NCBI GenBank assembly: GCA_012729855.1
Contig: JAAYCI010000004.1
Location: 62,001-126,000, forward strand
Origin: Oscillospiraceae bacterium
GTDB taxonomy: Bacteria; Bacillota; Clostridia; Oscillospirales; Ruminococcaceae
DNA length: 64,000 nucleotides
Direction of reading: 5' to 3'
Shown: piece after piece, positions 26,962 through 32,716 of the stretch
How positions within the stretch are numbered: the stretch's first letter is position 1
How the letters are laid out: every line of letters begins with the position of its first letter
The notes under the pieces: model-generated
Databases searched by the model: none
Told to the model about the DNA's origin: nothing
What the model saw: only the letters and a program-made list of their open reading frames with translations
Translations under genes and position numbers: made by a program

Positions 26962-27867
26962 TTATACGCCAAAGTAGCGGCAGATGGCGCTATAGTAGCT
27001 GTCGGCGGCGGTTTGGCAGCCGGTGTCGCTGGCAAAGGCCCGCACGTCGGCTTCGTTGGTGATGTAGCATTGCTCGGCCAGCACGGCCGGGCAGCTGGCG
27101 CGCTCCAAAATGCCCAATGTGGCGTCGCTGTAGGTGCTGGTGTCGCTCACCTCGCGGTACATGCGCTCGTAGTTGCCGTTGCCCTGGTCAATAAAGTAGA
27201 GGTAGCGCACCCCATAATCTCCCCGGGTGCCGGCGCCTGCCGCCCGCATTTCCTCGGCAATGTAATTGGCAAACGTCAGGCCGGCGTCGTGGTGGGTGCG
27301 GCCGGGCGGCTGGGGAAAGCACTCGAAGCCGGTGGTGGAGGCATAGGTGGGGTCGGAGTTGCCGTGCACCGACAATAGCAGCGCCGCCCCGGCGTCCTTG
27401 GCCCGGGCCACCCGTTCATCAATGGTGGCGCCCTGGCCTGCCTCGCGGCAAAGCACCGGGGTGAAGTTGGCGTCGTCCTCCAGCAGCTGGTACAGGCAGG
27501 CCACCGTCTTCTCGGTCATCTCAATCTCCTGGATGACCCCCTCGGCGCCCACGTCGTTGCCGCCGTGGCCGGCGTCCAGCGCCACCACGTAGGGCGGGCC
27601 GCCAGCCGGCAGCCCGGCCTGCTGCCTGGGCGCTTCCGCCACATTGGCGTTCGGCTGGGTGCCGCTACCAGAAAAGGCGCCAAGCATCATCAATATCACG
27701 GCCACTGCCGCCGTAAAAAGCAGCAGTGCCAGTACCACCACCGGCCAAAAACGTTTTTTGCGCTGGGGGGCCGTTCTGGCCACCGGCCGGCGGGCAGGCC
27801 CCGGGCTTTGCGGAGCGTTTTGGGCATAGCCGCCGCGTTCGTAGTCGTAAAAAGGTTGGTTGCTCAT
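26962..27867 (-). CDS. N-acetylmuramoyl-L-alanine amidase (Amidase_3), membrane-anchored
   Basis: 301 residues. A cytoplasmic basic N-terminus (APQRKKRF) is followed by a single membrane anchor at 41-63 and a short linker. The Amidase_3 domain spans about 92-300. Zinc ligands are H101 (DAGHGG), E116 (QEIEMTEK) and the His of LLLSVHGNSD; the catalytic Glu is in VLAEQCYITN. These enzymes cleave the MurNAc-L-Ala bond during cell separation or sporulation. The start codon overlaps the lipoprotein stop by 4 bp (ATGA), so the two are translationally coupled. The pair lies downstream of a probable OmpR-family operator. Confidence 0.93.
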   Translation of the reverse strand: MSNQPFYDYERGGYAQNAPQSPGPARRPVARTAPQRKKRFWPVVVLALLLFTAAVAVILMMLGAFSGSGTQPNANVAEAPRQQAGLPAGGPPYVVALDAGHGGNDVGAEGVIQEIEMTEKTVACLYQLLEDDANFTPVLCREAGQGATIDERVARAKDAGAALLLSVHGNSDPTYASTTGFECFPQPPGRTHHDAGLTFANYIAEEMRAAGAGTRGDYGVRYLYFIDQGNGNYERMYREVSDTSTYSDATLGILERASCPAVLAEQCYITNEADVRAFASDTGCQTAADSYYSAICRYFGV

Positions 27868-29393
27868 TCAATAAACTCCACATTTATATAGTTGGGGCGG
27901 CTGTTCACGTAGTCGTCCTGGGTAATCAGCGCGTAAATGGGTGTTTCCACTTCAACGGGGTACAACTCCCCCACCTTGCCGTCGTACATCTCGGTGCGTA
28001 TGTCGTAGCCGGAAATCACCAGGAACCTGTCGCCCACCTCGGTGATGATCTGCACGGGATCCGTGCCCCAGCCGCCGTTGGTAAACACCACATGGGGTAT
28101 GGCCGGCGCGGCGGGGGCATCATCCAGCAGCGGGCGCACGCCGCCGTTTGCCACCAGGCCCGAAAGGTAGGCCACATCGGGGCGCATGGTCATCTCCTTC
28201 ACTTCGCCGCTCTGGCGGTTCACGGCCAGGCGGCCGGTGGTGTACAGCTCGCCCTCCTGCTGGCTGTAATCCAGGAACATCCATTTGGTGTACACGCCGC
28301 CAATGTAGTAATTATTGAAGGCTTCATCGTTGGCGGCATGCTTGGGCAGCTTGTCGGTAACCACAACGGCCTCGCCGGTGGCAATGTCCTTCTTTTTCAG
28401 TACGCCCAGTTCGTTCTCCACATAGTAGATACCGTCCGGCATCAGGTACCAGCTGTCCTCCATCTCCTTGCGCTTCCACGTGTTCAGCTGCTGTTTTTCG
28501 CCGCTGTCCACATTCAGCAGCTGCATGATGATCCGCTCTTCCCCCTGGGCCTCTTCATATATGGCACTGTAGTCGCTTTCCACCGCGGCAAAGTCCTCGT
28601 CGGTGTAGGCCTCGGGGTCGGCGTACATGGTCTGCATCCGTTCTTCCAGCGCCTGCAGCTTGTCCTGGTCAATCGTTCCCTCAGCTTCCTCAAAGCTTTG
28701 CAGGTAAATCTCGCGGCCCTCCGCGCCGGTGAAGTAGCTCCAGCCCTCCAGCCCGCAGATGGTCTCCAGAGCGCCGCTGGCCAGGCTTACCCGCACCAGC
28801 TCCCGCCTGTAATCCACCGATTCCGTAGTCTCGCTGATGAGCGTACTGCGCACAAAGTAGGCGTTTTCACCGTCGTGCATGGCGCTGTAATCCAGCGATT
28901 CCTGCTCGCCCAGCTGTATCAGCGTTTTACGGTTGGCGCCGTTCAGGTCCATCATGTCAATGCGGGGCAGCACAGCCGGTGTTCCCTCGTAGCCCATCAT
29001 ACCCTGGTAGAACACCAGCAGCTTGTCGCCCACCGCCATAATGCTGGCGCCGCCGGCGTTGGCGTCCACATAGCTGGTGCAGCTGTCGTCGTTATGGGCA
29101 CAGCTGAGGTTGCTGCACAGGTACACGTGCTTCTGGGTGGCGTAGTCAACATAGGTAATGTTCAACTGGTTGGAGTTCCATACGTTTTTAAGGAAATAGA
29201 ACCCCGCGTCGGTGCCGGTGCCCAGGTAGGCGTAGTTGCCGGCGTATACCAGCGGGCCGCCCCTGGGCGTCACATCGCCCCCACCACCGCTGCCGGAAGT
29301 GGTTTGCGAGCCATCCGCCCCGCCGCCCGGCTGCGTGCCGCACCCCGTTAGCAGGCAGGCCGCCAGCACCACAAAAATCAGTAGCTTTTTCAT
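27864..29393 (-). CDS. Large lipoprotein, beta-propeller-like, unknown function
   Basis: 509 residues. The signal peptide ends in the lipobox LLTGC with Cys18, followed by a Gly/Ser linker. The rest is beta-rich, with repeated strands of the type YAYLGTGTDAGFYFLKN, DYSAMHDGENAYFV and RREIYLQSFEEAEG. This suits a seven-bladed propeller like the DUF5050 proteins, though I cannot confirm the family. One charged helix (about 240-280) interrupts it. Coupling to the amidase by a 4-bp overlap suggests a role in positioning or sensing the cell wall. An 11-bp-period direct repeat lies 110 bp upstream. Ribosome site AAAGGGG. Confidence 0.8.
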   Translation of the reverse strand: MKKLLIFVVLAACLLTGCGTQPGGGADGSQTTSGSGGGGDVTPRGGPLVYAGNYAYLGTGTDAGFYFLKNVWNSNQLNITYVDYATQKHVYLCSNLSCAHNDDSCTSYVDANAGGASIMAVGDKLLVFYQGMMGYEGTPAVLPRIDMMDLNGANRKTLIQLGEQESLDYSAMHDGENAYFVRSTLISETTESVDYRRELVRVSLASGALETICGLEGWSYFTGAEGREIYLQSFEEAEGTIDQDKLQALEERMQTMYADPEAYTDEDFAAVESDYSAIYEEAQGEERIIMQLLNVDSGEKQQLNTWKRKEMEDSWYLMPDGIYYVENELGVLKKKDIATGEAVVVTDKLPKHAANDEAFNNYYIGGVYTKWMFLDYSQQEGELYTTGRLAVNRQSGEVKEMTMRPDVAYLSGLVANGGVRPLLDDAPAAPAIPHVVFTNGGWGTDPVQIITEVGDRFLVISGYDIRTEMYDGKVGELYPVEVETPIYALITQDDYVNSRPNYINVEFIE

Positions 29394-29487: not shown

Positions 29488-29519
29488 AGCATAGCATCGG
29501 CATGTATCAAACTTGTATC
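29488..29519 (-). promoter_or_regulatory. OmpR/PhoB-type operator and promoter for the lipoprotein-amidase genes
   Basis: TGTATCAAACTTGTATC (29503-29519) is a direct repeat of TGTATC with 11-bp period. On the minus strand a TATGCT -10 box (29493-29488) lies 9 bp beyond the repeat, in the place where the repeat substitutes for a -35 box in PhoB-activated promoters. A near-copy with the same geometry precedes the regulator gene. Confidence 0.6.
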
Positions 29520-29546
29520 ATTTCGCGAAAACGCCGGAAATGGCTG

Positions 29547-30338
29547 CTAACCATTGTAAGCTGTCAGGTCGAAGTTGAGGTAATCTGCCCCCACGTTCAG
29601 GTTTACGGCCAGGCCCAATTTGGCATTGCCCCAGTACTGTGAGACAAGAAACCAGTCATCCGTTTCTGACGTATAGGCATCGGTGGATAACAGCTCCCAG
29701 TTTTCCAGCTCGCCCAGGCCCAGCCAGGCCAGATATTGCTGCATGATTTGCTCGCCGTTGTAAGCCAGCTCTTCAAAAAACCAGCTGTGCTCCGGCAGGT
29801 TGCTGTAGCAGTACATTTGCACCACCTTGCCGGTGCGTTTTTCGGTAACCATGTTGATAGCAATACCCAGCGGGCCGTTGCCGGTGCTGTATAAGTTCAG
29901 AACCTCAAAGCCATAGTTATCCAGCGTGTTTTCCGTCTGTACCTCAAGGCCAGCCTGGTAGATGCTGTCCATCAGCGCGGAGGGCATATCCAGCTGAAAA
30001 ATGCCCGCTTCGGCCATGGTATACAAACGGGTGTACATTGCGTTGGTCACCTCGTAGGCCTCCAAGTTGTTCTGCGCGCTGAGGCGGGGCGTTTCGTTGG
30101 AGCTCACACGGGCCAGGAACACCCAGGCCAAGTAGCTGCCGTCGCTTAAATCGCCGCCCTGCTGATGGCGGGGCTGGGCGGTTTCAAACAGCACGGTGTC
30201 CTCCAGGTGCAATATGGCGGTGGGCGCCAGCGCCGCCGCGGCCACCACCACGGCCGCCAATGCAATGGCCACTACATTGCGCACCCAGCCCCCGCGCTTT
30301 TCAGGCGGCGCCTGTGCACTTTCAGCTTTCGTTGTCAT
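29547..30338 (-). CDS. Membrane-anchored protein encoded with the two-component system
   Basis: 263 residues from ATG 30338, with the ribosome site AGGAAGGGGG inside the kinase gene. The open frame upstream is only a shadow of the kinase. There is one N-terminal membrane segment (about 22-46), then an extracytoplasmic domain of mixed alpha/beta character rich in aromatic residues (YLAWLGLGELENWEL, DDWFLVSQYWGNAKLGLAVNL). I know no family. A membrane-anchored third gene coupled by a 17-bp overlap to a kinase is typical of accessory proteins that modulate the sensor, as YycH/YycI do for WalK, so I infer such a role. Confidence 0.75.
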   Translation of the reverse strand: MTTKAESAQAPPEKRGGWVRNVVAIALAAVVVAAAALAPTAILHLEDTVLFETAQPRHQQGGDLSDGSYLAWVFLARVSSNETPRLSAQNNLEAYEVTNAMYTRLYTMAEAGIFQLDMPSALMDSIYQAGLEVQTENTLDNYGFEVLNLYSTGNGPLGIAINMVTEKRTGKVVQMYCYSNLPEHSWFFEELAYNGEQIMQQYLAWLGLGELENWELLSTDAYTSETDDWFLVSQYWGNAKLGLAVNLNVGADYLNFDLTAYNG

Positions 30339-31761
30339 CGGCCTGACCCCCTTCCTCGCAATAGGGCAGTGTAAAGGAGACCGTTGTTCCCACACCCACC
30401 TGGCTTTCAAACTGCAGGTGGCCCCCGTGCAGCACGGCAATGCGTTCGCTGAGGGCCAGCCCCAGCCCGCTGCCGCCCGAAGCCCGCGCGCGGGATTTGT
30501 CCACCATGTAGAAGGGCTCAATGATACGCTCCAGCTCCTCGGGTGGGATGCCGCGCCCGGTGTCCCGTACCAGGATGCGCACCCGCTCCCACTCCAGCTG
30601 CCAGCTGATGTGCACGGCCTCGTCCTCGGGCTCCGCTTTGGCGGCGTTCAGCATCAGGTTGCGCAGCAGGTCGGCCGCCAGGTCCATATCGGCCAGCACA
30701 TGCACCGCCCCGGCGGGGGTGAAGTCCAGCCGGGTGCCCTCCATCAGCGGCACCACGCTGCGGCCGGCCACTGCAAACAGGGTGTTCAGCTGCACCGGTT
30801 TCATCACCGGCTGTTCCTGCGAAAGGCCCATCAGCATCAGCAGCTTTTGGCTCAGGGATTCCAGCCGCTTGGACTCATGAAAAATATAGTTGGCCGCCTT
30901 TTGCCGCACGGCCGGCTCGTATTCGGTGGAGCGTAAAATATCAGAATAGCCGATGATGGAGGTCATCGGCGTTTTTATCTCGTGGGTAAAGGCGGCCACA
31001 AAGTCGTCCCGCTGGTGCACCGATGCATTCAGCGCCTCCACCTTTTGCTCCACCGCGCCGGCCATTTTGTCGAAGTTCCGGCCCAGCTGGCCCACCTCGT
31101 CGCCCCCGGTAAAACCGGTGCGCACCGCGTAGGCGCCCGAGGCTATTTTGCGGCTGACCAGGTTCAGCCGGCGGATGGGCCGGGTGAGCCGGGAGGCCAA
31201 CAGCACGATGACAACGGCCGAGCCCGCCAGCACAATGGCGGCCATGCGCAAAAAATTGGCCATCTGCCGGTCCCGCTCGCCAAACACGGCGTCCATGTCG
31301 TAGCCGTTCAGCAACCACAGCTGGCGGCCCATTGTTTCCACATTGCTGGCCAGCAGCATCACATGGCCGCCCTCCACCGGGCGTATCAGGTAATTATCTG
31401 TGCCGCTCTCGGTGGCCGCCAGGCGGTCTTCCTGCGAAACCCGGCCATCAAAATTTGAATAAATCTCCGATAAATCCCCGGCATAAAAGGCCGTCCACCG
31501 GCCGCCGCCGCCCATGTACTCGGTAAGGTGCTGGCCGTAGCGGCGCAGCTGGTTGTCGTCGGGCGCAATGCCGGTACTGGTCAAATCCAGCAGCTCGGCC
31601 TCCAGGGTGTATTTCTCCATGATATGCTGGTTCAGGTTCTGCCGCACCACGTTTTGCAGGCTGTCCTGAAAGTTCTGGCGTACCAGCAGGTAGCCCCCCA
31701 CCGAAAGGGACACCGCCAGCAGCACCGTAATGGCCAGCGCCAGCTTGATGGAAAACCTCAT
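30322..31761 (-). CDS. Sensor histidine kinase
   Basis: 479 residues. Membrane helices lie at about 7-27 and 170-190 and flank an extracytoplasmic sensor of roughly 140 residues. A HAMP segment follows (RLTRPIRRLNLVSRKIASG). The phospho-acceptor is H260 in FTHEIKTPMTSIIGYSD. The ATP lid boxes are N (LLRNLMLNAAKAEPED), G1 (VRDTGRGIPPEE), F (IIEPFYMVDKSRA) and G2 (GGSGLGLALS). The ATG overlaps the regulator stop as ATGA. The order regulator-kinase-accessory protein indicates one operon. The signal is unknown. Target genes suggest envelope state. Confidence 0.95.
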   Translation of the reverse strand: MRFSIKLALAITVLLAVSLSVGGYLLVRQNFQDSLQNVVRQNLNQHIMEKYTLEAELLDLTSTGIAPDDNQLRRYGQHLTEYMGGGGRWTAFYAGDLSEIYSNFDGRVSQEDRLAATESGTDNYLIRPVEGGHVMLLASNVETMGRQLWLLNGYDMDAVFGERDRQMANFLRMAAIVLAGSAVVIVLLASRLTRPIRRLNLVSRKIASGAYAVRTGFTGGDEVGQLGRNFDKMAGAVEQKVEALNASVHQRDDFVAAFTHEIKTPMTSIIGYSDILRSTEYEPAVRQKAANYIFHESKRLESLSQKLLMLMGLSQEQPVMKPVQLNTLFAVAGRSVVPLMEGTRLDFTPAGAVHVLADMDLAADLLRNLMLNAAKAEPEDEAVHISWQLEWERVRILVRDTGRGIPPEELERIIEPFYMVDKSRARASGGSGLGLALSERIAVLHGGHLQFESQVGVGTTVSFTLPYCEEGGQADDNES

Positions 31762-32420
31762 GTGTCCTTCTCCAGCATGTAGCCTATTTTATACACCGTG
31801 CGGATATGCCCCTGCCATCCCAGCTTTTTGCGCAGCCGCTGGATGTGTAAATCCAACGTGCGGGTGTCGCCCTCCGGCTCGCCCCCCCAGGCGCGCTCGA
31901 ACAGCACCTCGCGGTACAGCGCCACCCCGCGGTTGCGCAGCAGTATCTCCAGCAGGTCAAACTCGCGGGGCGTTAAGGCAATCTCGGTATTGTCCTCCTG
32001 GCGGGTAACGGTGCGGGCCACGGTGTCTACGCTGATGCCAAACGCGATAAGCTGGGCGCTGCCCTTGCCCAGCCGGCGCAGCACCGTTTCCACCCGGGCC
32101 ACCAGCTCGGGCGGCTCAAAGGGCTTTACGATATAGTCATCCGCCCCCATGCGCAGGCCCTTCACCCGGTCGTTCACCGAGGCCATGGCCGTCAGGAAAA
32201 TCACCGGGGCGGCCCCTGCGATGAAGTCCATCAGCTCGTACCCGCTGGCCCCCGGCAGCATGATGTCCAGAATGATCAAATCGTGCCGGTTTTCTTCAAT
32301 GATATCGGCCGCCGCCACGCCGTCCAGCGCGATGTCGCACTGGTAGCCCGCCTGGGTCAGTGTCATCTCAATCAGGTCGGCAATTGGCCGTTCGTCCTCC
32401 ACAATCAATATCCGGTTCAT
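31758..32420 (-). CDS. OmpR-family response regulator
   Basis: 220 residues, with AGGGGAGCCC upstream of ATG. The receiver domain has the acidic pair in VEDE, phospho-acceptor D52 (LIILDIMLPG), Thr in FLTAMAS and Lys in YIVKPFEPPEL. The C-terminal winged helix (LTPREFDLLEILLRNRG, RTLDLHIQRLRKKLG) is of OmpR/PhoB type. Such regulators bind direct repeats with 10-11 bp period. One is present 60-76 bp upstream of this gene and a near-copy precedes the lipoprotein-amidase genes, so it probably controls both itself and that operon. Confidence 0.95.
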   Translation of the reverse strand: MNRILIVEDERPIADLIEMTLTQAGYQCDIALDGVAAADIIEENRHDLIILDIMLPGASGYELMDFIAGAAPVIFLTAMASVNDRVKGLRMGADDYIVKPFEPPELVARVETVLRRLGKGSAQLIAFGISVDTVARTVTRQEDNTEIALTPREFDLLEILLRNRGVALYREVLFERAWGGEPEGDTRTLDLHIQRLRKKLGWQGHIRTVYKIGYMLEKDT

Positions 32421-32464
32421 GGGCTCCCCTTTTTTGTGCCGCTGTTGCCGCTGTGTCCTGCCCC

Positions 32465-32496
32465 ATTGTTGAACACCACTGTATCCAAGTTGTATC
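32465..32496 (-). promoter_or_regulatory. OmpR/PhoB-type operator and promoter upstream of the response regulator
   Basis: TGTATCCAAGTTGTATC (32480-32496) matches the repeat at 29503 in 15 of 17 positions and has the same 11-bp period. On the minus strand a weak -10-like AACAAT (32470-32465) again lies 9 bp beyond the repeat. This fits autoregulation. Confidence 0.55.
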
Positions 32497-32589
32497 GGCC
32501 TATACCCAGCATACTGTTTTGCCGGGTGTTTTGTCTCAGGTTATCCTGCCTTTTTTCTGATATTTTTCCAACAAATATATAGTCAAACC

Positions 32590-32654
32590 AATCGCCCTCT
32601 GGGCGATTCCCGCGCATTGTCATGCGCGGCTTCAAAACTGTTTCGGTTTTGAAG
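32590..32654. repeat. Array of three adjacent perfect hairpins
   Basis: AATCGCCC/GGGCGATT (32590-32608, 3-nt loop), CCGCGCAT/ATGCGCGG (32610-32629, 4-nt loop) and CTTCAAAAC/GTTTTGAAG (32630-32654, 7-nt loop) lie almost end to end. The 12-bp palindrome GTATAATTATAC follows near 32663. The array sits between the regulator promoter and the M18 gene terminator, with no coding frame. It may be a structured RNA, a REP-like element or a recombination/transposition end. Confidence 0.55.
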
Positions 32655-32683
32655 TGGTTCCAGTATAATTATACCATAACAGC

Positions 32684-32716
32684 AAAGACCGAGGCACCCG
32701 GCGGGACACCTCGGTC
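32684..32716 (-). terminator. Terminator of the coaE-transglycosylase-M18 gene string
   Basis: On the minus strand, GACCGAGG and CCTCGGTC form an 8-bp stem followed by only TTT. It is a weak terminator. Confidence 0.5.

Follow-up and report, generated by a model that had tools for sequence, protein, structure and literature searches.

Paired direct repeats with an 11-bp period mark a probable OmpR-type envelope regulon in an Oscillospiraceae bacterium

Two near-identical boxes flank a two-component gene module

Two 17-bp sequences, TGTATCAAACTTGTATC at 29503-29519 and TGTATCCAAGTTGTATC at 32480-32496, lie on either side of a response regulator (RR) gene in the 64-kb window (the whole stretch of Oscillospiraceae DNA that was analyzed) and are identical at 15 of 17 positions. 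Do these sequences serve as operators of that regulator, and if so, which genes does it control? The genes in this part of the window are on the minus strand, and we therefore read each box as GATACA-N5-GATACA (TGTATC-N5-TGTATC on the noncoding strand), that is, as GATACAACTTGGATACA (32496 to 32480) and GATACAAGTTTGATACA (29519 to 29503). The features of the locus are as follows.

32480-32496, minus strand: putative regulator box 1, GATACA-ACTTG-GATACA, 11-bp period, upstream of the RR gene; predicted autoregulatory site
32465-32470, minus strand: −10-like hexamer AACAAT, 9 bp downstream of box 1
31758-32420, minus strand: RR, 220 amino acids, receiver (PF00072) and winged-helix (PF00486) domains, recognition helix TRTLDLHIQRLRKKLG
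30322-31761, minus strand: sensor histidine kinase, 479 amino acids, HAMP, HisKA and HATPase_c domains; gene start overlapping the stop codon of the RR gene
29547-30338, minus strand: single-transmembrane (single-TM) envelope protein, 263 amino acids, third gene of the module, no Pfam family
29503-29519, minus strand: putative regulator box 2, GATACA-AGTTT-GATACA, upstream of the lipoprotein-amidase operon
29488-29493, minus strand: −10-like hexamer TATGCT, 9 bp downstream of box 2
27864-29393, minus strand: β-propeller-like lipoprotein, 509 amino acids, first gene of the box 2 operon, conserved lipobox Cys18
26962-27867, minus strand: N-acetylmuramoyl-L-alanine amidase (Amidase_3), 301 amino acids, 4-bp overlap with the lipoprotein gene

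An earlier note on this DNA had described the two matching 17-mers, had placed a −10-like hexamer exactly 9 bp beyond each on the minus strand, and had assigned one box to the response regulator and the other to the lipoprotein-amidase genes. The coordinates and the identity were confirmed, as was the 9-bp distance for both TATGCT and AACAAT, and the two boxes indeed precede an intact RR gene and an operon that ends in an Amidase_3 gene. AACAAT is a weak −10 element, matching TATAAT at four of six letters, and most relatives have TAnnnT at this position. Box 1 ends about 60 bp from the RR start and box 2 about 110 bp from the start of the 509-residue lipoprotein. On inspection of the sequence, no TTGACA-like hexamer was readable 16 to 18 bp before either −10 hexamer. 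Two exact copies of the box occur in the window, against 0.001 expected from a first-order Markov estimate; when up to two mismatches were allowed, there were eight matches compared with a mean of 1.46 in shuffled sequences, none of which reached eight.

Both domains of the RR scored above their cut-offs (PF00072, 91.6 bits; PF00486, 81.8 bits) with the receiver and the winged helix intact, and by its domain sequence the protein is an OmpR/PhoB-type response regulator. Regulators of this type recognize head-to-tail repeats of about 10 to 11 bp. As far as sequence can tell, the box behaves in the same way, being conserved at a spacing of 11 and at essentially no other.

The predicted structure of the 263-residue single-TM protein contains two tandem repeats, each of a helix and four strands. 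Its closest fold among the best 50 matches listed was the YpeB C-terminal domain, a weak match (Z 7.4 over 135 residues, root mean square deviation 5.1); neither YycH nor YycI was among those 50. The protein has no convincing Pfam match. A gene for a single-TM protein is present in third position behind most related kinases. The 509-residue lipoprotein is β-propeller-like both by profile and by predicted fold.

Additional boxes lie upstream of genes elsewhere in the genome

We scanned the 2.59-Mb genome by pattern searches, both exact and with mismatches. GATACA-N5-GATACA occurs exactly three times, compared with 0.045 expected (Markov estimate), and all three copies are upstream of genes. The third, GATACAACTTCGATACA, lies shortly past a TetR gene, ahead of a gene for an ABC transporter ATPase, and is followed, after 9 bp, by TACAGT. 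A near copy, GAAACAACTTTGAAACA (GAAACA-N5-GAAACA), likewise followed after 9 bp by a hexamer, TAGCCT, lies ahead of a gene for a PcsB-like M23 peptidase; this site was not found to be conserved in relatives of that gene. Another near copy, GATACAACTTGGATGCA, lies ahead of a C39-like gene and is extended by two more 11-bp units, so that the array has a degenerate third unit and a fourth that reads GATACA, with GATACT 9 bp past this last unit. All of the listed sites are oriented toward their gene.

At three mismatches, the combined box and −10 pattern gave 30 matches in the genome and 18 in the control; weak matches are therefore mostly noise and were not counted as sites. The loci L141, L143, L144 and L156 were inspected and not retained. 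The position C4:5869, with one mismatch, precedes a gene for a transglutaminase-like lipoprotein and is kept as a candidate only, because the gene start lies more than 200 bp away.

The earlier note had named many unrelated copies with no bias to promoters as the outcome that would speak against a regulon. What the 2.59-Mb genome holds is three exact copies and a few near ones, the good sites upstream of genes and in the right orientation. The predicted regulon is larger than the note supposed, with at least five putative sites in the source genome.

The box and its −10 spacing are conserved upstream of related regulator genes

Using a kinase scan of the genome collection, we gathered 80 related loci, mostly from Gemmiger, Ruthenibacterium, Fournierella and related metagenome bins. 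Nearly all of these loci have an RR homologue upstream of the kinase. Regions upstream of the related RR genes numbered 77, and 37 of them have GATACA-N5-GATACA at spacing 11 with at least 11 of 12 matches; the other spacings that were tried gave 0 to 6, and shuffled sequences averaged 0.01 (maximum, 1). The position of the −10 element is similarly restricted: TAnnnT occurs at offset 9 in 30 of the 43 relatives with a box and in no more than 5 at any other offset. The loci are not independent of one another; with the RRs clustered at 75% identity, the box is kept in 12 of 27 clusters, the window's own included.

Across both strands of the 811 kb of related loci, 37 of the 44 box matches fell within 150 bp upstream of an RR gene. 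Of the others, only four had a −10 element; three of these precede Amidase_3-type genes in Gemmiger-type genomes, and the fourth precedes a FemAB gene. The amidase sites outside the source genome are weaker (GAGACA-N5-GATACA) and occur in loci whose RR is of a paralogous clade. For roughly half of the related RR genes we found a variant box or none at all, and some of these genes may sit inside operons, as in L167.

Independent genomes place the box before envelope genes

In a search of 41 relatives, G039, a distant genome from the same order, carried 11 sites with no control match. Both of its RR relatives (54 to 55% identity) have the box, one of them as four tandem units, and additional boxes precede genes for FemAB, a VanY-type carboxypeptidase and solute-binding lipoproteins. 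On three contigs of this genome (C16, C74 and C88; L119, L127, L130 and L132), near-identical boxes, GATACAACTTKGATACAACTCTGTKTTATGAT, stand before genes for solute-binding lipoproteins and permeases close to the ends of contigs. Their arrangement suggests a transporter family that is duplicated, hard to assemble and under what would be the same control.

A strict pattern run against 394 genomes of the order returned 10 matches and no control matches. These precede RR orthologues and LytR-CpsA-Psr (LCP), C39 and lipoprotein or transport genes; the newly added ones lie before RR orthologues in G127 and G301, an LCP gene in G127 and a C39-like gene in G340. The C39-like relative in G037 is likewise preceded by GATACAACTTCGATACA. 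Three genomes of the same genus that are 63 to 70% complete (G001, G002 and G004) yielded neither an RR of this clade nor a box, and another genome, G003, encodes a clade RR (58 to 59% identity), yet no box was found there. In G024 (C1:3549267-3550958), relatives of the C39-like and Amidase_3 genes adjoin, so that two targets that are separate in the window genome are joined in one locus.

Because sites occur before amidase, FemAB, LCP, C39 and VanY-type genes, the targets are repeatedly envelope genes, and the exact set varies by lineage. The idea in the earlier note of an OmpR-family regulator that controls itself gains support from the conservation of the box before RR genes in many genera, and that of an adjacent cell-wall hydrolase module from the boxes before these envelope genes elsewhere.

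The regulator falls below the curated PhoB, WalR and VanR cut-offs

The window RR scored under every curated cut-off shown, and we rejected its identification as PhoB (185.5 bits versus 296.2), as WalR (YycF; 155.3 versus 340) and as VanR (VanR-ABDEGLN, NF033117; 156.2 versus 350). The pstB/phoU-like open reading frames of this genome adjoin another regulator (L096), and a better YycF-like candidate is encoded elsewhere (L094, 255.5 bits to NF040534). The same genome also has a VanR-type RR above the curated cut-off (L099, G000:C74:389-1081; 377.6 versus 350).

A probable activation circuit and its alternatives

We consider it very probable that both boxes are operators of the RR encoded at 31758-32420, through which it would activate its own operon and the lipoprotein-amidase operon as parts of an envelope regulon. 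The phosphorylated RR would bind the two GATACA half-sites as a head-to-tail dimer, the 11-bp period placing them one helical turn apart on one face of the DNA, as in the Pho box. The bound RR, covering the −35 region, would stand in for a −35 element and bring RNA polymerase to the −10 hexamer, which lies 9 bp further on. In this way it would activate the genes for itself, the kinase and the single-TM protein, and likewise the lipoprotein-amidase operon; at least three further promoters in the genome (those of the PcsB-like M23 peptidase, the C39-like protein and the ABC transporter ATPase) would belong to the same circuit. The kinase presumably senses an envelope-related signal, and the envelope or cell-wall regulon would be conserved in part among relatives. 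Mechanistically this would be an ordinary circuit, an envelope regulon under a two-component system that regulates itself. In the literature searched on GATACA/TGTATC boxes and Ruminococcaceae regulons, which covered few subscription papers, the circuit was not described, and the regulon and its box appear undescribed there.

The same boxes could be true sites of this RR and yet repress, blocking RNA polymerase over the promoter. The box does cover the −35 region of each promoter, and in Clostridioides difficile some hydrolase genes appear to be repressed by WalR, which is of similar type (PMC9210968). A repressor site needs no fixed register, however, and the 9-bp gap to the −10 element kept in 30 of 43 relatives counts against one. 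A box over the −35 region, no readable TTGACA-like hexamer and a constant −10 distance together fit activation by contact with polymerase, and we regard repression as unlikely.

It is very unlikely, in our judgment, that a different OmpR-type regulator of the cell, such as a WalR/YycF-like protein, uses the boxes as its operators, although several points could be read that way: TGTATC-N5-TGTATC has the same period as the WalR box and five of six letters per half-site allowed by its consensus (PMC9210968), L094 is the better YycF-like candidate, and targets such as the M23/PcsB-like peptidase and the amidase are WalR-like. Against this, the box lies directly before the RR of the window clade in many genera and varies in form from one RR clade to another; genomes of the same genus that yielded no RR of the clade lack the box, yet have other OmpR-type regulators; and the fifth half-site letter is T rather than the A required by TGTWAH. 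As for two sites that resemble each other by accident and regulate nothing, short direct repeats are common in 64 kb (there are 41 perfect hexamer repeats at distance 11 in the window), but the excess of exact genome copies, a footprint at one spacing only and a strict search of 394 genomes free of control matches make this hardly credible.

Comparison with known systems

The RR that we propose as the activator resembles the VanR family, OmpR-type regulators of envelope genes in Bacillota, in being OmpR-type with predicted envelope targets, and differs in its score below the NF033117 cut-off. With PhoB it shares an OmpR/PhoB winged helix, head-to-tail repeats of 11-bp period and an adjacent kinase of its own. 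The Pho box of Escherichia coli, however, consists of two 11-bp direct repeats with the half-site CTGTCAT (PMC2648988, PMC3978041), whereas the half-site here is GATACA and the predicted targets are envelope rather than phosphate genes. The likeness to WalRK (YycFG) lies in the predicted cell-wall hydrolase targets, the direct repeats of the same period and a kinase gene followed by one for a single-TM accessory protein. Unlike the WalR box of Bacillota, TGTWAH-N5-TGTWAH (PMC9210968), the window boxes read TGTATC-N5-TGTATC, with T as the fifth half-site letter; the window genome also has a separate, better YycF-like regulator, and no YycH/YycI match was found for the accessory protein among the matches listed. 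RR_1586 of C. difficile is an autoregulating OmpR-family regulator that recognizes DRTTAAGNWWW twice and whose regulon was read from motif conservation (PMC6222199). The window RR is similarly a regulator of Clostridia, predicted to be autoregulating, with two 11-bp direct repeats; its half-site is different, and RR_1586 targets transport, signaling and spore genes rather than envelope genes.

Paralogous regulators are paired with variant boxes

OmpR-type proteins form the largest class of bacterial response regulators. Five versions of the box were seen across RR clades: GATACA/GATACA, GTTACA/GATACA, GATAGA/GAAAGA, GTAACA/GAAAGA and GATACA/GACGAA. Recognition helices differ between clades as well, for example, RTLDLHIQRL versus RPLDLCITRL. 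RRs with RPLDLCITRL have the box GATAGA-N5-GAAAGA, and those with RTLDIHIHRL have GTAACA-N5-GAAAGA; this pairing of helix and box is an association at the level of clades, with few independent events. When RR columns were compared with half-site letters by mutual information, clade structure dominated and no residue was singled out. We tentatively suggest that the module of RR, kinase, accessory protein and lipoprotein has been copied repeatedly in Gemmiger-like bacteria, each RR clade having its own box, in its own promoter, and its own helix residues. If so, the paralogues would amount to a natural archive of the ways in which OmpR-type regulators shift their DNA specificity once duplicated and keep their circuits insulated, and the series with differing boxes would be a ready set for reading DNA-recognition rules, which it may expose.

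The regulator itself, so far unnamed, now has a predicted operator and gene set, with a geometry that can be tested, and the prediction reaches many poorly studied relatives from the gut (Gemmiger, Ruthenibacterium, Fournierella and others). Because lysis and the response to antibiotics are shaped by cell-wall hydrolases, FemAB and LCP enzymes, an additional envelope regulator beside WalR would matter for this group.

Other features of the locus

A dispersed palindromic element is present upstream of the RR box (window positions 32570-32684, minus strand; core, 32624-32654). It consists of AACCACTTCAAAAC-N7-GTTTTGAAGCCGCGC followed by two further hairpins, GCGCATGACAATGCGC and ATCGCCCAGAGGGCGAT. 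More than 30 copies occur in the genome, with no control match; because the core is palindromic, the matches number 67 in all. The element looks REP- or MITE-like. The β-propeller-like lipoproteins, both that of the window and those encoded behind related kinases, have in common a Cys/His motif that is nearly invariant (in the window protein, Cys93, Cys98, His100 and Cys105) and may be a metal or disulfide site.
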